Shown here: one piece after another, positions 2,405 through 61,669 of the stretch | Layout of the letters: each line of letters starts with the position of its first letter | How positions within the stretch are numbered: the first letter of the stretch is position 1 | Origin: Nitrososphaerota archaeon | GTDB taxonomy: Archaea > Thermoproteota > Nitrososphaeria > Nitrososphaerales > Gagatemarchaeaceae | DNA length: 64,000 nt | Reading direction: 5' to 3' | Assembly: GCA_028866945.1 (NCBI GenBank) | Contig: JAGWHE010000002.1 | Coordinates: 1-64,000 of the forward strand | Made by a program: the position numbers and the translations under genes | Notes under the pieces: generated by a model | Seen by the model: the letters and a program-made list of their open reading frames with translations, nothing else | The model's database searches: none | What the model was told of the DNA's origin: nothing

Positions 2405-2492
2405 GTCTCACATTCTCACCCATAGGAAACGTCTCGACCTTTATCTGGCGCCCGAAGCCCGCGAAGCTTCGTTGGGGCATGGAGGAGAAGCT

Positions 2493-2515
2493 CAGGCGCG
2501 TAAATATCGCGCCTG
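2493..2515. promoter_or_regulatory. Perfect 8-bp inverted repeat around the TATA box of the hydrogenase operon
   Basis: The arms CAGGCGCG (2493-2500) and CGCGCCTG (2508-2515) are perfect inverted repeats. They flank the 7-base core TAAATAT (2501-2507). The core is the only good TATA-like box for hypA: its centre is 27 bases before the hypA ATG at 2531, so transcription should begin at or next to the start codon. A dimeric regulator bound here would cover both the TATA box and the BRE. That is a classic repressor position in archaea, and it probably controls the twelve-gene run from hypA to the M/N-like subunit. Confidence 0.6.
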
Positions 2516-2530
2516 CGAAAGGTTGGACGG

Positions 2531-2881
2531 ATGCACGAGTACGTCTACGCCGACAGGATCCTCCAGTCGGTGCTGGAAGATATCGGCAGGACGGGGAAGC
2601 CGTCCGCCGTCACCGTGGAGGTGGGGGAGATGCTCGGCCTCACGAGAGAATCGCTGACTTCGGCCTACGAACTCCTGTCGAAGGGGACCAGGGCGGAAGG
2701 CTCGAAGCTGAAGGTCAAGTTCGCGAAGGGGGCCGTGGAGTGCCCGAAGTGCGGCTTCCACGGGAGACTCCAGCTGAGTCGCCACCTCCACGCGGTGGAC
2801 CCGGCCTTCGCCTGCCCAAAGTGCGGGTCGTCCCTCAGGGTCTCGGCCGGACTGGGAGCTCGGTTGATCCGGGTAGAATGA
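2531..2881 (+). CDS. hypA: Hydrogenase nickel-insertion protein HypA
   Basis: HypA delivers Ni2+ to the large subunit of [NiFe] hydrogenases together with HypB. This 116-residue protein starts with the nickel-binding MHE motif. Near residues 74-98 it has the zinc site, two CPKCG motifs about 20 residues apart. The MHE N-terminus fixes the start at 2531, which agrees with the TATA box at 2501-2507 and implies a leaderless transcript. It is the first gene of the operon. The following protease gene overlaps it by 4 bases (ATGA). No hypB, hypD, hypE or hypF is in the window, so those must be elsewhere. Confidence 0.92.
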   Translation: MHEYVYADRILQSVLEDIGRTGKPSAVTVEVGEMLGLTRESLTSAYELLSKGTRAEGSKLKVKFAKGAVECPKCGFHGRLQLSRHLHAVDPAFACPKCGSSLRVSAGLGARLIRVE

Positions 2882-3381
2882 GCGAACAAAAGCTCGGCGG
2901 CGACTGGCGCAGCAAGCTCGACGTTGCCCTCGAGTTCAGCGGGACCATCGACCTGGTCGGGGTCGGGAACTCCATCAGAGGGGACGACGGGGTAGGCATC
3001 GAGATAGCGTCGAGCCTCCGTAGGAAGCTCCGTGGAGCCGGAGGGCTGAAGGTCCATCCGACTGCGCAGATGCCCGAGAGGCTGCTGTCGAAGCTCGCGT
3101 CGACCGCCCAAAGGGTCATCCTCTTCGACGCCGTGGAAGTTGACCGGCCCCCGGGGACCATAGTCTGCCGGAAGCTAGGCGAATCCAGGCACGGATTCTT
3201 CGCGACCCACAACGTCCCGCTGAACCTGGTACCGGGCCTGTCGGCACGGCTCGACGACTTCTACGTAGTCGGGGTCCAGCCGGAGTCCCTCGAGGTGAAG
3301 GAGGGGATCTCCCAAACGGCGCGAGCGGCGGCCGGGACCATAGTCGAGTTCCTCGTGGCAAGGTCGGAGGCGAGGAGATGA
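2878..3381 (+). CDS. Hydrogenase maturation protease (peptidase M52, HycI-like)
   Basis: This endopeptidase would remove the C-terminal tail of the [NiFe] large subunit after nickel insertion. The 167-residue protein has the M52 signature 'GVGNSIRGDDGVG' near residue 28, an internal acidic position in 'LFDAVE', and a histidine in 'FATHN'. These correspond to the nickel-sensing Asp/Glu, Asp and His residues of HycI/HybD. Its ATG overlaps the hypA stop (ATGA). The large subunit encoded at 4614-5849 keeps a 32-residue tail after its CxxC motif, so the enzyme has a substrate in the same operon. The next gene overlaps by 4 bases. Confidence 0.9.
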   Translation: MSEQKLGGDWRSKLDVALEFSGTIDLVGVGNSIRGDDGVGIEIASSLRRKLRGAGGLKVHPTAQMPERLLSKLASTAQRVILFDAVEVDRPPGTIVCRKLGESRHGFFATHNVPLNLVPGLSARLDDFYVVGVQPESLEVKEGISQTARAAAGTIVEFLVARSEARR

Positions 3382-4173: not shown

Positions 4174-4621
4174 CCCCCTCCAGCGGCTGAGCGCAAAGCT
4201 CGGCGGGGCCCTGCATCCCGAGCGAAGGACCACCCTCCTGACCGTGGACCCTAGCAAGGTCGAGGAGGCGTGCCTGGGCGTGGCGTCCCTCCCGGGGCTC
4301 TACCACCTGAGCACGATCACCGGGGTGGACCTCGGCGACCAGATCGGGATCCTCTATCACTTCTGGGAGGGGAGGCGGTTCGTCACCGTGAAGACGGCGG
4401 TGCCCAAGACCGCTCCCCGGATCCGGTCGGTAGCCGGCGCCCTGCCGGCCGCCACTCTCTACGAGGCCGAAATCCAGGACCTCTTCGGAGTAGCCTTCGA
4501 CGGAAACCCCTACGCAGGCAAGCGGCTCCTCCTCCCGGACGACTATCCGGCAGAGGCGCCCCCGCCGATGAGAAAGGAGGCCGACCCGGAAAAGATCAGG
4601 AGGATGATGAAGCTTGAGTGA
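4154..4621 (+). CDS. NuoC-like 30-kDa subunit
   Basis: This 155-residue protein matches the complex I 30-kDa family (NuoC; N-terminal part of HycE). The conserved run 'SVAGALPAATLYEAEIQDLFGVAFDGNPYAGKRLLLPDDYP' region, near residues 95-137, holds the family motif E-x-x-D-x-F-G. It is a separate gene rather than fused to the large subunit as in HycE, which is the complex I/Fpo arrangement. The GTG start at 4154 lies inside the preceding gene (20-base overlap), and the next gene starts 8 bases before its stop. Translational coupling is therefore likely. Confidence 0.87.
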   Translation: MRRTSADPLQRLSAKLGGALHPERRTTLLTVDPSKVEEACLGVASLPGLYHLSTITGVDLGDQIGILYHFWEGRRFVTVKTAVPKTAPRIRSVAGALPAATLYEAEIQDLFGVAFDGNPYAGKRLLLPDDYPAEAPPPMRKEADPEKIRRMMKLE

Positions 4622-5849
4622 CGCCCCAGCGGGCGACCGGAAGGAGACAGGCGCCGGCCTCATGCAGTACTCCCCCGAGGGCATGATGCCCTTCGGGCCG
4701 GTGCACCCGTCTCTGAAGGAACCCGAATACTTCAAGCTCATACTCGAAGGCGAGAAGATCGTCCAGGTCGTCCCACGCATCGGCTACGTCCACAGGGGCA
4801 TCGAGCGGGCAGCCCAGGAGCGGACCTGGGTGAAGGACATCTACCTGTTCGAGAGGATCTGCGGGATCTGCAGCTTTGCCCACAGCATCTCCTTCACCCA
4901 GGCGGTGGAGTCGATGTCGCCCTTCGAGGTCCCCGACCGGGCCCGGTACATCCGGGTAGTGGTCGCCGAGCTAGAGAGGATTCATTCCCACCTGCTCTGG
5001 CTCGGGCTCGTCGGACACTGGGCAGGCTTCGACACCCTGTTCATGTGGGTCTGGAAGGACAGAGAGCACGTCCTGGACCTGGAAGAGGGGATCACCGGCA
5101 ACAGGGTGCACAAGTCATACTCGACCTTCGGCGGGGTCAGGAAGGACCTCCCGGAAGGCATCGGTGCGAAGGTGACCGCCGAGCTCGGCTACATCGAGAA
5201 GCGGGTCGCCTACTACAAGGACCTGGTCCAGTCGGAGCAGACCCTGACGGTCAGGACGAGGGGGGTGGGGCGGATATCTCAGGACACGGCCAGGAAGCTC
5301 TCGCCCGTGGGGCCGCTCCTCCGCTGCACAGGCATCGGGAGGGACGTGAGGACCGAGGATCCCTACGCCGCCTATGACGAGGTCCGGCCCGAGGTCCAGA
5401 CTTCGAAGGATGGGGACATCGCATCTCTCCTCGTGCTGAGGCTCAACGAAGTCCTCGACTCCTGCAGGATGGTCAAGGAGGCCCTGGAGAAGATCCCGTC
5501 AGGTCCATTCAAGGTCCCGTTCCCCAGGACCGTCCCCGAAGGGGAGGCGGCCTTCCACGTGGAGGCGCCCCGGGGGGAACTCTTCTACTTCGTGAAGTCC
5601 GCCGGGGGGAGTGTCCCGGAGAGGGTGAAGATACGGACGCCGACCATGGCCAACCTCCTCACCGCCACGGAGATGCTCAAAGGCCAGACCCTGGCAGACG
5701 TCCCGGTGGTCCTCACCGGGATGGACCCCTGCTTCGGCTGCATGGACCGGGTCTCCGTCTTCGATGTCGACAAGTCCAAGGAGTGGTCCCTCAGTGGCGA
5801 AGAACTTCGCGACTACGGCATAGAGTACTATCGGGGGAGGCGCGGTTGA
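4614..5849 (+). CDS. Group 4 [NiFe] hydrogenase large (catalytic) subunit, NuoD/HycE-like
   Basis: This is the nickel-binding subunit that makes or uses H2. In 411 residues it has the N-terminal ligand motif RICGIC (C83, C86) and the C-terminal motif DPCFGC (C373, C376). All four nickel ligands are therefore present. In complex I NuoD and in Fpo these positions are not all cysteine. After MDR379 a 32-residue tail (VSVFDVDKSK onward) resembles the tail of HycE that HycI removes, so this should be made as a precursor and clipped after R379 by the protease encoded at 2878. The start is TTG 4614, overlapping the C-like gene; ATG 4662 is an alternative. The framework otherwise follows the 49-kDa/NuoD family. 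Confidence 0.93.
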   Translation: MSDAPAGDRKETGAGLMQYSPEGMMPFGPVHPSLKEPEYFKLILEGEKIVQVVPRIGYVHRGIERAAQERTWVKDIYLFERICGICSFAHSISFTQAVESMSPFEVPDRARYIRVVVAELERIHSHLLWLGLVGHWAGFDTLFMWVWKDREHVLDLEEGITGNRVHKSYSTFGGVRKDLPEGIGAKVTAELGYIEKRVAYYKDLVQSEQTLTVRTRGVGRISQDTARKLSPVGPLLRCTGIGRDVRTEDPYAAYDEVRPEVQTSKDGDIASLLVLRLNEVLDSCRMVKEALEKIPSGPFKVPFPRTVPEGEAAFHVEAPRGELFYFVKSAGGSVPERVKIRTPTMANLLTATEMLKGQTLADVPVVLTGMDPCFGCMDRVSVFDVDKSKEWSLSGEELRDYGIEYYRGRRG

Positions 5850-16989: not shown

Positions 16990-18212
16990 CAGCTCCCCCC
17001 CTCCGCCAGGGCGACCGCGCGCTTCACCTTGGCCATCTCCTCGCTCCTCATCAGGAACATGGGCGCCAGTGGCTTGCTCCCGCTGTTCACCGCAATCATC
17101 TCTTCGAAGATCGACGTCATCTCGTCGGAGGTCAGCTGCTTCCCTCCGAGGCCCCCAACCACGGGGAGAATCGTCTGCGGCCTGTCCCGCACATGGTACA
17201 TGGACGCCGCGACCTCGGGGAAGAGGATCCCCCCCGAGCCCGGCGACAGGTTCTGATCGAACACGGCAGCCGCCTTCCTCCCCTTGAGCAATGCCACGAC
17301 CTCCTCTGTGGGGAACGGCCTGACCATCCTCAGCTTCAGGAGCCCGGCCGGCACCCCCCTTTCCCTCATCCTGTTCACCGCCTGTCTCCCCAGGGTGGTG
17401 AACGAGTTGGACATCACGATGACATACTCTGCGTCGTCCAGCCTGTACCCCTCGACCGGGCCGTAGTCTCGTCCGAAGAGCTCCTTGTAGTCCCTGGCCG
17501 CCTCGCTGAAGACCTTCTTGGCCCTGACCGCGGCAGCGTGCATGTTGTACTTGAAGTAGCTGTACACGAACCCCTCCATGACCGCCGTCCCCTTGGCCAC
17601 AGGCTGGCTCGCCCTGAGCGGGTGCGGGGGCTGGTAGGGCGGGAGGAAACTGTCCACCCCCTTCTGGTCGGGGAGGACCACCCTCTCCCTGGTGAACGAG
17701 AGATAGAACCCGTCGAGGTTCACGATCGCTGGGAGCATCACCCTGCTGTCTTCCGCCACCCTGTAAGCGAGGAGCACCATGTCTGCAACTTCCTGGCAGG
17801 TCTCGGAGTGGAGCTGGATGAAGCCGCTGTCCCTGGCCGCCAGCACGTCGTTGTGGTCGGGCTCCAGCACGATGGGCGCGGCCAGCGCCCTCGACACGTT
17901 GACCAGCACCATGGGCGCGCGCCACCCCGACACGTTGTAGAGCATCTCCATGGCGTACAGGAGACCCTGGCTCGAAGTGGCGGTGAACACCCTGGCCCCC
18001 GCCAGGGAGGCGGTCCCCGCCGCCGTCATCATCGAGTGCTCTGACTCGAGCTGCACGAACTTCGCGTCCATGGTCCCCTCCCTGACCCAGTCGGCAATTG
18101 TCTCGATTATCTCGGTCTGGGGGGTGATGGGGTACGCTGGGATGTAGTCCACCCTGGCGAGCCTGGCCGCAGACGCGGCTGCCGCGTTCCCTGTGAGGAG
18201 CTTCCCCTTCAC
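16989..18212 (-). CDS. porA: Pyruvate/2-oxoacid:ferredoxin oxidoreductase alpha subunit
   Basis: This 407-residue alpha subunit contains the substrate and ThDP pyrimidine-binding domains. Landmarks are 'LLTGNAAAASAARLARVDYIPAYPITPQTEIIE' near the N-terminus, 'ESEHSMMTAAGTASLAGARVFTATSSQGL', and a C-terminal 'LLKLRMVRPFPTEE'. GTG 18212 is preferred because it overlaps the stop of the gamma-delta gene (GTGA) and begins just before the conserved 'GKLLTGN'. A longer start at 18278 would add 22 unconserved residues that overlap the upstream gene. Confidence 0.9.
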   Translation of the reverse strand: MKGKLLTGNAAAASAARLARVDYIPAYPITPQTEIIETIADWVREGTMDAKFVQLESEHSMMTAAGTASLAGARVFTATSSQGLLYAMEMLYNVSGWRAPMVLVNVSRALAAPIVLEPDHNDVLAARDSGFIQLHSETCQEVADMVLLAYRVAEDSRVMLPAIVNLDGFYLSFTRERVVLPDQKGVDSFLPPYQPPHPLRASQPVAKGTAVMEGFVYSYFKYNMHAAAVRAKKVFSEAARDYKELFGRDYGPVEGYRLDDAEYVIVMSNSFTTLGRQAVNRMRERGVPAGLLKLRMVRPFPTEEVVALLKGRKAAAVFDQNLSPGSGGILFPEVAASMYHVRDRPQTILPVVGGLGGKQLTSDEMTSIFEEMIAVNSGSKPLAPMFLMRSEEMAKVKRAVALAEGGS

Positions 18213-19099
18213 CGCGTGCCCCCCTCCATCGTCTGCGAGATCGCCCTCAGTGGGCATTCCGTGAGGCAGATCATGCACCCCTTGCAGTTGTCGTAATCAA
18301 TCGCGACCCTACCGTCCTCCCGCACAGACATGGCCGACTCCGGGCAGTAGGCGTAGCAGATCATGCAGTCGGTGCACTTCTCGTAGTCGATGACCGGCTT
18401 GAAGGTCCGCCAGTTCCCGGTGTGCCTTACGGCAGAGTTGCCGGTCCGCGTCACGTCCTCCATCCCCTCACCTGACACCACCACTGCCAGGGGGACGAGC
18501 TCGAGTTTCGTCGGGAGCTCCTCGGTCCGGAGTTCGAGCGGCGCCAGCTGACCGTAGACCGCCATGGCGAGCTCCACGTTCTTCCTGACCATCTCCTCCG
18601 ACAGCCCCACCTCCCTGAGCTCCTCGGCCACCGCCGCCAGGAACTGGCTCTCTCCGATCCCCGCCACCCTTGCTACCGCAGCCGCTATCCCAGAGCTTAG
18701 CACCGCCTTCCCCAGCATCTTCAGCGCCATCCCAGTGAGGTCGACGGCGATGATAGTCGCGTCCTTCCTGTCAGCGAGCAGGGCGTCCGAGCGCTTCGTG
18801 GTGTTCACGACCGCGCACCCTCCCTTCCTCAGCCCGGCGAAGGGGTTTGCGAGCGGGTCGTCGATGAGGGAGTCGTCCATCACCCCGACGATGTCGGGCG
18901 AGAAGATGAAGCCCCTCTCGGTGATCTCGCCGTCGGAGAACCTGGTGAAGGCGGCCACCGGCGCGCCCCTCCTCTCCGCGCCATAGATGGGGAAGTCCTG
19001 GCTGTAGTAACCGTCGTTGAATGCCGCGTCCCCCAGGATCCTGCTCGCAGTCTTCGCTCCCTGGCCCCCCCTCCCGTGGAACCTGACCCTGAGCATCAT
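18209..19099 (-). CDS. Pyruvate/2-oxoacid:ferredoxin oxidoreductase gamma-delta fusion
   Basis: This 296-residue protein joins the gamma subunit (about residues 1-190; 'RFHGRGGQGAKTASRILGDAAF', 'IYGAERRGAPVAAF') to a delta-type ferredoxin domain with two [4Fe-4S] motifs near the C-terminus (CTDCMICYAYCP and CKGCMICLTECP). The fused order differs from the four-gene POR of Pyrococcus. It is the first gene of the operon, and a CTTTAAC box near 19134 precedes it. The complex would supply reduced ferredoxin for the hydrogenase encoded upstream. Confidence 0.9.
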   Translation of the reverse strand: MMLRVRFHGRGGQGAKTASRILGDAAFNDGYYSQDFPIYGAERRGAPVAAFTRFSDGEITERGFIFSPDIVGVMDDSLIDDPLANPFAGLRKGGCAVVNTTKRSDALLADRKDATIIAVDLTGMALKMLGKAVLSSGIAAAVARVAGIGESQFLAAVAEELREVGLSEEMVRKNVELAMAVYGQLAPLELRTEELPTKLELVPLAVVVSGEGMEDVTRTGNSAVRHTGNWRTFKPVIDYEKCTDCMICYAYCPESAMSVREDGRVAIDYDNCKGCMICLTECPLRAISQTMEGGTR

Positions 19100-19184
19100 G
19101 ACCTAACGACTTAGGGAAGCCGTCATTCTGCAGTTAAAGGGGGGTTACGATTCTCAGAGGTGAAAATCGTCGGCCAGGGGGGGA

Positions 19185-34290: not shown

Positions 34291-34354
34291 GGCTCCTTTT
34301 CCAGACCTGAGAATCAGCATCAATCCTTAAAGCGACTTTGCCGGCGCGGCCGCA

Positions 34355-35821
34355 GTGCCCTTGAAGTCGAGCCACGTCGTCTCGGTGGGCGTCACGAATG
34401 CCCAGTCGTGCCCGGGGGGCGGGGCGTCACGCCGGCTCCTCCACGAGCAGGTCGAAAGAGCACAAATAGCCGGGAAGGGCCGGGACTCTTCCTTGGTCAA
34501 GAGGCCTAAGGAGGACTTCTCAAGGAAGGCGCTGGCCTACTCGAAGTTCTACGGAGGGAAGGTCGGCTTCTCGCCCAAGGTGCCCGTGAGGTCCCTGGAC
34601 GACTTCTCCATCTGGTACACCCCGGGCGTCGCGGCGGTGTCGAAGGCGATTGAGGCCAACCCGGAGCTGTCCTTCGAATACACCGGAAGGTGGAACACCA
34701 TAGCGGTGGTCAGCGACGGCACGAGGGTGCTGGGCCTGGGGAACATCGGCCCCGAGGGGGCTCTCCCGGTCATGGAAGGGAAGGCGCTGATCTACAACTA
34801 TCTCGGAGGGGTGAACGCGATCCCGCTCCCCGTGAAGGTCGGGAGCCAAGAAGAGCTCATCTCGTTCGTCAGGGCGCTCGAGCCTTCTCTCGGCGGGGTG
34901 AACCTCGAGGACATCGAGTCCCCGAAGTGCTTCGAGGTCCTGGACCGGCTCAGGTCTGAGATGAACATCCCGGTGTGGCACGACGACCAGCAGGGGACTG
35001 CGGGGGTCACCCTGGCCGCACTCTACAACGCGCTGGAGCTCACGGGGCGCAAGCTTAGGGGCTCCAAGGTCGTGCTCTTCGGTGCCGGCGCGGCGAACGT
35101 GGCGGCGGAGCGGCTCCTGGTGAAGGCGGGCGCCGACCCAAAGGACCTGATCGTGGTGGACTCCAAGGGGATCCTCCACCCTGAGAGGGAGGACATCGAC
35201 CAGCTCATGCTCAAGAACAAGTGGAAGTACGAGATCGCCATCCACACCAACGGGGACAGGGTGACCGGGGAGCTGAAGGACGCCCTCAAAGGCGCGGACG
35301 CCCTGGTCGCGGCCGCGGGCCAGGGGCCCGAGATGATCAAGCCCGACCAGATCGCGGTGATGAACAGGAGGGCGATCACCTTCTTCCTCGCCAACCCGGT
35401 GCCAGAGATGCTCCCCGACGCCGCCCGGGCCGGTGGCGCCGAGATCATCGCCACGGGAAGGTCCGACTACCCCAACCAGGTGAACAACAGCCTGCTCTTC
35501 CCCGCAATCTTCAGGGGCGCCCTCGACGTCAGGGCGAAGACGATAACCGACTCCATGGTGATCGAAGCCGCCAAGGAGCTGGCAGCCTTCGCCAGGGACA
35601 AGGGCATCAGTGACCGCTACATCCTCCCGACCATGGTCCAGTGGGAGGTCTTTCCGCGGATCGCTGCGAAGGTGGGCCAGGCCGCCATCAGGGAGCGGGT
35701 CGCCAGGAAGAGGCTCTCTGCCGCGGGGTCGCTCGACGCCGCCATGTCGATGATCGAGCATTCTAGGAAGGTGATGCGCACGCTGAGGAGGAGCGGAGTG
35801 ATACTTGACCCGCCAGAATAG
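34355..35821 (+). CDS. Malic enzyme (NAD(P)-dependent malate dehydrogenase, decarboxylating)
   Basis: This enzyme makes pyruvate and CO2 from malate. The conserved parts are 'WYTPGVAAVSKAIEANPELSFEYTGRWNTIAVVSDGTRVLGLGNIG', the catalytic-lysine region 'LPVKVGS', 'NIPVWHDDQQGTAGVTLAALYNAL', and an NAD(P) motif 'VVLFGAGAANVAAERLL'. From GTG 34355 it has 488 residues. TTG 34493 gives 442 residues, closer to other archaeal malic enzymes, and has its own AAATAG-type box about 30 bases upstream. The first 46 residues therefore may not be translated. With PPDK and POR it forms the pyruvate node of this window. Confidence 0.92.
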   Translation: MPLKSSHVVSVGVTNAQSCPGGGASRRLLHEQVERAQIAGKGRDSSLVKRPKEDFSRKALAYSKFYGGKVGFSPKVPVRSLDDFSIWYTPGVAAVSKAIEANPELSFEYTGRWNTIAVVSDGTRVLGLGNIGPEGALPVMEGKALIYNYLGGVNAIPLPVKVGSQEELISFVRALEPSLGGVNLEDIESPKCFEVLDRLRSEMNIPVWHDDQQGTAGVTLAALYNALELTGRKLRGSKVVLFGAGAANVAAERLLVKAGADPKDLIVVDSKGILHPEREDIDQLMLKNKWKYEIAIHTNGDRVTGELKDALKGADALVAAAGQGPEMIKPDQIAVMNRRAITFFLANPVPEMLPDAARAGGAEIIATGRSDYPNQVNNSLLFPAIFRGALDVRAKTITDSMVIEAAKELAAFARDKGISDRYILPTMVQWEVFPRIAAKVGQAAIRERVARKRLSAAGSLDAAMSMIEHSRKVMRTLRRSGVILDPPE

Positions 35822-58866: not shown

Positions 58867-59001
58867 CGTTTGTTAGCGTGCGCCAGGCCCTCCGCTTGCC
58901 ACCCCTGAGAATTGGGTTCCCGCCTTAAATCTCCACGGGGCTGCCGATTCAGACATGTGCGCGTTGAAGGAGCCGCCGGCGCCTACCAGGGGGGGCCTCT
59001 G

Positions 59002-59955
59002 ATGCCTCCGAGGGGGAGGCAGCTCGAGGTCACCATAGCTCTCGGGGGGAACGCCATCCTGCGCCGGGGCGACCACGGGACCGCGGAGGAGCAGATCGAC
59101 CGCGTCAGGGCCACCGCCAGGGCACTGGTGCACCTGATCGAAAAGGGGGACAGGATCCTGCTCACCCACGGCAACGGCCCCCAGGTGGGAGACATCCTGG
59201 TCCAGAACGAGGCCGCCAAAGACCAGGTGCCGCAGATGCCCCTGGACGTGTGCGGTGCCCAGAGCCAGGGGATGATCGGGTACATGCTGCAGCAGGCGCT
59301 ACGGGGGGAGCTGGACGCCGAGGGGATCGACATGCCGGTGGTGACCGTGCTGACACAGGTGCTGGTGGACCGGGGAGATCCGGCGTTCCGCAACCCGACG
59401 AAGCCGGTCGGCCCTTTCTATTCCGCCCAGGAGTCGTCTCGCCTCTCGAAGTCGAAGGGGTGGGCGATGGCAGAGGACTCGGGGAGGGGGTACAGGAGGG
59501 TCGTCCCCTCACCCGTGCCGAAAGACATAGTGGAGAAGGGAACTGTGGCGAGGCTCTTCCGGGCGGGCGTCCTGGTCATCGCCGCCGGGGGCGGGGGCAT
59601 CCCCGTCGTCGGGGGGAGGGGCCGACTCCGGGGGGTGGAAGCGGTGCTCGACAAGGACCGGACCGCTTCCCTGCTGGCGACGACCATGAAGACCAAGGTC
59701 CTCCTGATCCTGACCGACGTCGACGGGGTCTACCTCGACTACGCCGGCCCCAGGCGGCGGAAGTTGGACGCCCTCGACGTGAAGGCCTGCGAAAGATACC
59801 TCCGCGCGGGCCAGTTTCCTCCCGGGAGCATGGGGCCGAAGATCGAGAGTGCGGTGTCCTTCCTGAAGGCGGGCGGGGTCAGGGCCGTCATCGCCTCCCT
59901 CGAAGAGGCGGAGGCCGCCCTGGCCGGCAGGGCAGGGACGACGATCACCCGCTAG
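59002..59955 (+). CDS. arcC: Carbamate kinase
   Basis: This enzyme converts carbamoyl phosphate and ADP to ATP, CO2 and NH3, or runs in reverse. From ATG 59002 it has 317 residues, with 'LEVTIALGGNAILRRGD', 'LLTHGNGPQVGDILVQNEA', 'CGAQSQGMIGYMLQQAL', 'VIAAGGGGIPVV', 'LDKDRTASLLA' and 'LTDVDGVYLDY', all typical. GTG 58957 would make it leaderless relative to a CTTAAAT box near 58924-58929 and add 15 residues. No arginine deiminase or ornithine carbamoyltransferase gene is nearby, so the carbamoyl phosphate source is unknown. Confidence 0.94.
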   Translation: MPPRGRQLEVTIALGGNAILRRGDHGTAEEQIDRVRATARALVHLIEKGDRILLTHGNGPQVGDILVQNEAAKDQVPQMPLDVCGAQSQGMIGYMLQQALRGELDAEGIDMPVVTVLTQVLVDRGDPAFRNPTKPVGPFYSAQESSRLSKSKGWAMAEDSGRGYRRVVPSPVPKDIVEKGTVARLFRAGVLVIAAGGGGIPVVGGRGRLRGVEAVLDKDRTASLLATTMKTKVLLILTDVDGVYLDYAGPRRRKLDALDVKACERYLRAGQFPPGSMGPKIESAVSFLKAGGVRAVIASLEEAEAALAGRAGTTITR

Positions 59956-59994: not shown

Positions 59995-60807
59995 CTAGTT
60001 CCACTGCACCCAGTTGACCCTGGGAGCCCGCGGCGTGGCGAAGTCGGCGTATGCCTGGACGATGTCCCTGGCCGTGACCACTCCGACGCCTTCCCCCTCG
60101 ACCCAGAGCGGCAGACGCTTGAACCCGTGCAGCGACATCGTCCCCGCCGCCTCCCTTCCGAAGATCCCTGGCTCGGCTGTGATCAGGGGGGTGGTTGCGA
60201 CCTCAGACACGGGGGTGTGCAGGCTCCTCCTCTTCGCAAGTATCCGCTTGACAAGGTCCCTCTCAGTGAATATCCCTGTCCACTTCCCGTCCTCGGCGAC
60301 GATGACGCTGCCTATCTTCCTCTCGTCCATGAGCTTGACGACCACGTCGATGGGCGTCTCGGGCATCGCCGTGACGACCTTCGTGGAGATGACCTTCAAG
60401 ATGGAGAAGTCCCTGTCCACTCCCTTCAGCACCTTCATGAGGTCTGTCGGAGTTACTATGCCGACCAGGTCCGCGCCTTCGAACACCATCAGCCTGCTCT
60501 TCTTCGTAATCATGGCCGAAGCGGCCTCGTCCAGGCTCATGGTCGACCCTATGGCGGGGAAGCGGGGGGACGCGACCTCTGAAATCACCGTGGCTGCGGG
60601 GTCCTTCCCCTTGGCCAGCACCCGGCTAATGAGGTCCCTCTCGGCGAAGACGCCGCAGGGCCCGAGTGTGTCGACCACCACCACGCTCCCGATGTTGTGC
60701 TCGTCCATGGCCTGAATCGCCTTCTGGACGTTGGACTCTTGGTAGACCGTGACGACTCCCCTTCCCATGAAGTCCTTGACCAGCGGTCCAGCGTGCTTCA
60801 GCGACAT
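59995..60807 (-). CDS. Protein with four CBS domains
   Basis: This 270-residue protein is made of two CBS pairs: 'VTVYQESNVQKAIQAMDEHNIGSVVVVD', 'SRFPAIGSTMSLDEAASAM'-like, then 'STKVVTAMPETPIDVVVKLMDERKIGSVIVAEDGKWTGIFTERDLVKRIL' and a last CBS ending near the C-terminus. Such proteins sense AMP, ADP or ATP. ATG 60807 is preferred because a TTTATTAT box on the minus strand (near 60838-60845) lies about 33 bases upstream. It is divergent from deoC. Its target is unknown. Confidence 0.88.
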   Translation of the reverse strand: MSLKHAGPLVKDFMGRGVVTVYQESNVQKAIQAMDEHNIGSVVVVDTLGPCGVFAERDLISRVLAKGKDPAATVISEVASPRFPAIGSTMSLDEAASAMITKKSRLMVFEGADLVGIVTPTDLMKVLKGVDRDFSILKVISTKVVTAMPETPIDVVVKLMDERKIGSVIVAEDGKWTGIFTERDLVKRILAKRRSLHTPVSEVATTPLITAEPGIFGREAAGTMSLHGFKRLPLWVEGEGVGVVTARDIVQAYADFATPRAPRVNWVQWN

Positions 60808-60961
60808 GTTCAGTCGGAAAAACGGCCCCGTCCGCATAATAAACGGGGATTACAATTCCCAACGTTGAGAAACCCTTGCAGCCGGCCCGAATCTGGGCCT
60901 GCGGGCGCTCGGTTTCAGGGGTAGGAATCGTCATACCGGTTTATCAGCCGTCGGAGGCTCT

Positions 60962-61669
60962 TTGCCCCCTGACATGACCGGCCTACAGGCGCCTGCAGAC
61001 GTGACGCCCCGGGCGACCCTGGCCCGGGTCATCGACCACACCCTTCTGAGGGCCACCGCGACCCCCCTGGAAATCGAGAGGCTCTGCGACGAGGCGCGCC
61101 GCTACGGGTTCTGGAGCGTCTGCGTGGCCCCCATCCACGTCGAGCGGGCCTTCGACCGGCTCCGGGGGAGCAGCTCCAGGGTCTGCGCAGTGGTGAGCTT
61201 CCCTCTCGGGACGAGCACGACCGCGGCCAAGCTGTTCGAAGCCCATCAGGCAGTCGCTAGCGGCGCCAGGGAGTTGGACATGGTCTCGAACATCGGCGCG
61301 CTGAAGTCGGGGAACGAGTGGGGGTTCTTCGAGGACATCAGGCAGCTCGCCGCATACTCCCACGGTGCCGGCGTCCTGCTCAAGGTGATCCTGGAGTGCT
61401 GCTACCTGACCGACGACGAGAAGGCCGCCGGAGCCAGGCTTGTCGAGCGGGCCGGCGCGGACTTCGTCAAGACTTCGACCGGCTTCGGGCCGGGGGGCGC
61501 CACCGCCGCAGACGTCTCGCTCCTGCGGAGGACGCTCTCGAGGAAGGTGGGGGTGAAGGCGGCCGGAGGGATCGGGACCCTGGCCAAGGCCAGGGAGATG
61601 CTCGACGCCGGGGCGGACAGGATCGGCACCAGCTCGGGTGCCAGCATCCTGGAGGAGATTCCCGGCTAG
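60962..61669 (+). CDS. deoC: Deoxyribose-phosphate aldolase
   Basis: DeoC splits 2-deoxyribose 5-phosphate to glyceraldehyde 3-phosphate and acetaldehyde. The 235-residue protein has 'VIDHTLLRATATPLEIERLCDEA', 'SVCVAPIHVERAF', 'VVSFPLGTSTTAAKLFEAHQAVASGARELDMVSNIGAL' and the Schiff-base lysine in 'GADFVKTSTGFGPGGAT', followed by 'VGVKAAGGIGTL'. A TTTATC box near 60938-60943 precedes TTG 60962. Its stop lies 6 bases from the converging HerA-like gene. Confidence 0.95.
   Translation: MPPDMTGLQAPADVTPRATLARVIDHTLLRATATPLEIERLCDEARRYGFWSVCVAPIHVERAFDRLRGSSSRVCAVVSFPLGTSTTAAKLFEAHQAVASGARELDMVSNIGALKSGNEWGFFEDIRQLAAYSHGAGVLLKVILECCYLTDDEKAAGARLVERAGADFVKTSTGFGPGGATAADVSLLRRTLSRKVGVKAAGGIGTLAKAREMLDAGADRIGTSSGASILEEIPG

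Follow-up and report, generated by a model that had tools for sequence, protein, structure and literature searches.

A conserved dyad element as the probable regulatory site of a hydrogenase operon in Nitrososphaerales, upstream of a probably fortuitous palindrome

The hydrogenase operon and its promoter region

The window analysed here is a stretch of 64,000 nucleotides from a Nitrososphaerota archaeon (contig JAGWHE010000002.1, positions 1 to 64,000). Near its beginning lies a hydrogenase operon in which hypA is followed by a gene for a HycI-like maturation protease and then by genes for NuoB/C/D-like subunits, as identified with Pfam (Table 1). The operon has the features of a Group 4-type NiFe hydrogenase, namely a large subunit with both nickel-binding CxxC motifs, partner subunits resembling those of complex I, and the maturation proteins HypA and HycI. 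A first-pass annotation had noted that no regulator gene is adjacent to hypA, and this is correct; the upstream neighbour, at 1919-2404, has a marginal Pfam match to Fic/DOC. Similar proteins are also encoded upstream of hypA in three other genomes of the genus (G021, G016 and G002).

Table 1. Coordinates of the features discussed, numbered from the first nucleotide of the window.
Feature	Position	Strand	Remarks
Upstream dyad TTCTCA-N4-TAGGAAACG (putative regulon element)	2413..2431	+	conserved in 5/5 hypA loci; class enriched genome-wide
P1 TATA-like box TTTATC, element position 28-33	2440..2445	+	same spacing in 5/5 genomes
Reported palindrome	2493..2515	.	CAGGCGCG-TAAATAT-CGCGCCTG, perfect 8-bp arms; arms without conservation
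P2 TATA box, predicted leaderless hypA transcript	2501..2507	+	identical TAAATA at -30 in 5/5 genomes
hypA	2531..2881	+	Pfam HypA, 66.2 bits
hycI-like hydrogenase maturation protease	2878..3381	+	Pfam HycI
Hydrogenase large subunit (NuoD-like)	4614..5849	+	RICGIC and DPCFGC motifs
Element class before 2-oxoacid:ferredoxin oxidoreductase gene (18209-19099)	19148..19166	-	
Element class before malic enzyme gene (34355-35821)	34298..34316	+	
Element class before carbamate kinase gene (58957-59955)	58896..58914	+	
Element class before four-CBS protein gene (59995-60837)	60853..60871	-	
Weaker element copy before deoC (60962-61669)	60912..60930	+	3 mismatches to the hypA version

We compared the five genomes of the genus that carry this HypA (our own, G021, G016, G002 and G001), and their aligned promoters have two sequence features in common. 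The first is the box that we call P2. TAAATA is invariant in all five promoters at -30, that is, 30 bp before the start codon, which supports the TATA box as well as the leaderless start of hypA proposed in the first-pass annotation. Transcription from P2 would be predicted to yield a leaderless HypA mRNA.

The second is a two-fold symmetric dyad located approximately 80 bp upstream of the palindrome on which the first-pass annotation had focused. All five promoters have TTCYCA-N4-YRRGAAACG followed by TTTATC, TTATC or TTAAAC, a TATA-like box (P1). In our own genome this box, TTTATC, is weaker than P2. P1 would be predicted to start transcription near 2467-2470 and to give a leader of approximately 60 nt; in each of the five genomes the P1 leader contains upstream AUGs that do not share the hypA reading frame.

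An ATG at 2479 (element position 67/68) opens a reading frame that overlaps hypA (window 2479-3381; loci L057, L058, L005 and L059). This alternative frame is stop-free through hypA in all five genomes (the chance of this being 0.12-0.17 each under random synonymous codons), continues into hycI in four of them, and ends at the hycI ATG in G001. A protein product was considered and rejected. Between our genome and G021 the predicted products are identical at 56 of 115 positions, against 80% identity for HypA, with the changes falling mainly at hypA third positions, and this comparison gave no sign of selection on an overlapping protein.

A class of dyad elements upstream of TATA boxes

Sequences resembling the hypA dyad are found well beyond the hydrogenase operon. 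With three or fewer mismatches, TTCTCA-N4-TAGGAAACG occurs in five places in the window, compared to an expected 0.74. Genome-wide counts were obtained by pattern searches, with the reversed pattern as control. TTCYCA-N4-TGRGAA with at most one mismatch was found in 26 places in our 1.27-Mb genome versus three for the reversed pattern, and an element of the form TTCYCA-N4-TGRGAATCG-N10-TATA (also -N10-TTAWAT) precedes approximately 18 promoters. At most of the TATA-bearing sites TCG directly follows the dyad and an A/T box begins at about position 30; the hypA copy deviates from this consensus at TAGGAAACG. Matches to the element are present in all 31 genomes of the genus, with 548 matches versus 93 for the control across the 28 that were tallied. 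Beyond the genus, in other families of Nitrososphaerales, a strong excess was seen in G036, G033, G060 and G076, and the spacing to the TATA box is the same there.

This spacing was checked independently on 20 regions from four other genomes of the genus, chosen by the dyad alone, which contain 21 oriented sites. An A/T five-mer starts at element position 28-32 in 18 of the 21, compared to 0 or 1 in each of six control windows. At most of these sites and at all five hypA loci, a conserved dyad stands at a fixed distance upstream of a TATA box, as archaeal upstream-activator sites do.

The promoters that carry the element are functionally related to one another, again as is the case for upstream-activator sites. 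In our own genome they include those of the hydrogenase operon (hypA), a universal stress protein (Usp), a ferredoxin, GDH, a COX2/cupredoxin protein, AsnA, a P-type ATPase, a GltD-like flavoprotein, malic enzyme, carbamate kinase, a four-CBS protein, 2-oxoacid:ferredoxin oxidoreductase (POR), an HTH_10 regulator and, with a weaker copy, DeoC. The targets in G076 are similar (Usp, CBS proteins, GDH, a GltD-like protein and ferredoxins, together with a response regulator and an HTH_20 protein), and those in G036 include the small subunit of an uptake-type NiFe-hydrogenase, HypC, TatA and the nickel transporter NicO. That hydrogenase and nickel genes recur in separate lineages is the best clue to function, and gene content suggests that the cue of the putative regulon would be oxygen, redox or energy.

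An 80 kb stretch of G076 (C65:10001-90000; loci L153-L156) is unusually dense in elements, which lie before many Usp, CBS and redox genes, and the same contig encodes the hypA homolog of this genome. A 22-kb contig of G036 (C49, locus L157) contains at least five elements and encodes a NiFe-hydrogenase small subunit with a Tat signal, HypC, TatA, NicO and two HTH_20-type genes.

Alternatively, the element could be common to strong promoters throughout this order, read by the basal machinery and not acting as a regulated switch. Its very rigid spacing to the TATA box would fit such a role, and several targets, GDH and POR among them, are probably expressed at high levels. However, there are only approximately 18 TATA-bearing sites in a 1.27-Mb genome, the strength of enrichment varies widely among families, and the dyad symmetry suggests a dimeric regulator. 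We therefore consider a basal promoter feature unlikely, and favour the reading of the element as the operator of a regulon.

Candidate regulators

Synteny and co-occurrence point to a small putative winged-helix regulator of the HTH_20 (ArsR-like) type as the most likely binder of the element. The gene is truncated at a contig end in our own genome, whereas G022 has a complete copy (L192:1625-1987). At 17 of 22 loci in the genus, and also in G033, the element lies 9-12 bp downstream of an HTH_20 gene, in the promoter of the next gene, and in G076 it lies within the promoter of the HTH_20 gene itself. In our genome and G022 the HTH_20 gene belongs to a conserved block with genes for Usp and a membrane protein, joined in our genome by a CBS protein gene. 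The recognition helix is near-invariant. Enrichment of the element is higher in genomes that have HTH_20 (p = 5e-6, and p = 0.003 outside the genus), with the caution that the genomes are related and these p-values are overstated. Among 18 HTH_20-bearing genomes from outside the genus, seven showed little or no enrichment. Against the HTH_20 model P0003, the protein of G076, scored 26.1 bits, below the curated cut-off of 27, and a search with P0003 among solved structures found no relative.

The main competitor for this role is the HTH_10 (Bat-like) protein P0002, which would leave the element real and change only its binder. In all 17 close HTH_10 orthologs the element is found 58-66 bp upstream of the start codon, and across 81 genomes the presence of HTH_10 is correlated with enrichment (p = 5e-7, a value likewise overstated by the relatedness of the genomes). 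HTH_10 was the binder that we favoured at first. It was set aside since, at the cut-offs used, no HTH_10 ortholog was found in the element-rich genomes G036 and G060; moreover, its orthologs scarcely reach outside the genus. We retain it as a target and as a rival binder, in which latter role it seems improbable to us, and the HTH_20 regulator is preferred. Besides the element, the HTH_10 orthologs of the genus (L061-L077) share a second motif, CCCTAA, which is situated between their TATA box and start codon.

The palindrome around P2 and a model of the regulon

The first-pass annotation had described perfect 8-base arms around TAAATAT, 27 bases before the hypA start, and had proposed them as a dedicated switch, perhaps for oxygen, redox or nickel, at which a bound protein would block TBP. 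The arms are present as described, with the box centred at 2504 and the hypA ATG at 2531. The sequence and its position therefore stand, but neither a special frequency in the window nor conservation of the arms was found. Perfect 8-bp inverted repeats with a loop of 0-20 nt number 34 in the window, versus a mean of 42 in dinucleotide shuffles, and those with a 7-nt loop number two versus approximately 1.8. Such arms enclose an A/T run of at least six bases once in the window, against 0.017 cases expected per window (one in 60 shuffles); this test is post hoc, having been devised once the sequence was known, and the enclosure is mildly unusual and only a mild argument for function. The genome search that had been suggested as a check returned a single occurrence of the exact arms, the palindrome itself. 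With up to two mismatches our genome has four arm matches versus none for the reversed control, the other three having spacers that are not TATA-like, and in most genomes of the genus such matches occur at about the frequency of the reversed control.

None of the other four hypA promoters retains the full arms. In G021, the closest relative, three of the 16 arm bases differ, none of them compensating, which leaves five of the eight pairs, and there is no trace of the arms in the G016, G002 and G001 promoters. As the arms are not maintained in relatives, an outcome that the first-pass annotation had itself named as refuting, the idea of an operator is by that criterion refuted beyond our own species, and we rejected the palindrome as a conserved operator. 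Archaeal repressor operators that overlap the TATA box are known, for example those of MDR1 and Phr, and the palindrome resembles them in being placed where a bound protein would exclude TBP. It differs from them in that its arms are not conserved at orthologous promoters, occur only once and have no known regulator, and the likeness is unsupported.

A dedicated repressor that blocks TBP at the palindrome, at least in our own species, would be suggested by perfect arms centred on a TATA box and by the rarity of A/T-enclosing cases, but it has against it the loss of the arms in four relatives, the single perfect copy in our genome, the chance frequency of inverted repeats in the window and the lack of an adjacent regulator, and we regard it as very unlikely. 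Least credible of all, and rejected as unsupported in relatives, is an RNA hairpin in the P1 leader that controls hypA translation: the predicted fold of our own leader contains the 8-bp stem and 7-nt loop, but this leader shows no folding advantage over shuffles (z = -0.28), and the four relatives' leaders have no matching hairpin. The palindrome is most likely fortuitous, surrounding a genuine and conserved TATA box.

Overall, we consider it probable that the palindrome arose by chance, that the P2 TATA box is real, and that the conserved regulatory site of the hypA operon is the upstream dyad, as one operator of a regulon extending across Nitrososphaerales. A switch for oxygen, redox or nickel at the head of this operon may still hold, yet for the dyad and not the palindrome, and as a switch shared by a regulon and not dedicated to the hydrogenase.

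Our model starts from the observed sequence, conservation, enrichment, rigid spacing and gene content of the element, and adds to them a putative binder, cue and direction of control. The element, TTCYCA-N4-TGRGAATCG-N10-TTAWAT, would act as an operator at a fixed distance upstream of P1, and P2, with its fortuitous palindrome, would give rise to the leaderless hypA mRNA. A dimeric helix-turn-helix protein, most likely HTH_20, would bind immediately ahead of the TBP/TFB site and would activate transcription in response to redox, oxygen or energy. Activation is favoured over repression since the element is placed upstream of the TBP/TFB site, at approximately 41-59 bp from the predicted start. 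The regulon would comprise genes related to hydrogenase and nickel, as well as genes for ferredoxin-linked oxidoreductases, for universal stress and CBS proteins, and for enzymes of amino-acid metabolism or fermentation.

In kind, the element is comparable to known archaeal upstream-activator sites just upstream of the BRE/TATA, such as those of Ptr2 in Methanocaldococcus and of Bat at the bop promoter of Halobacterium, with binding and activation presumed in our case. Like them, it is a dyad that precedes the TATA box by a short, fixed distance, suited to the recruitment of TBP/TFB. It differs from them in sequence and lineage, and the candidate HTH_20 winged-helix protein is neither Lrp-type nor Bat-type. 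The DosR dormancy and hypoxia regulon of Mycobacterium, which comprises universal stress proteins, CBS-domain proteins, ferredoxin and redox enzymes, is similar in gene content only and not by descent; here the promoters are archaeal, the DNA site is different and there is no DosR-type regulator. In the literature searched we found no description of the element, nor of a thaumarchaeal regulon with such content.

The palindrome by itself is an ordinary finding. More tentatively, and with somewhat more doubt than confidence, we suggest that the element may mark an ancient Nitrososphaerales regulon for H2, redox and dormancy under a small winged-helix activator, into which different hydrogenase groups may have been wired lineage by lineage. 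The element supplies specific promoters, a consensus and a single candidate protein, all open to in vitro tests that need no cultured host, and it would offer a handle on when the Nitrososphaerales, known almost only from metagenomes, turn on their hydrogenase and fermentative genes.
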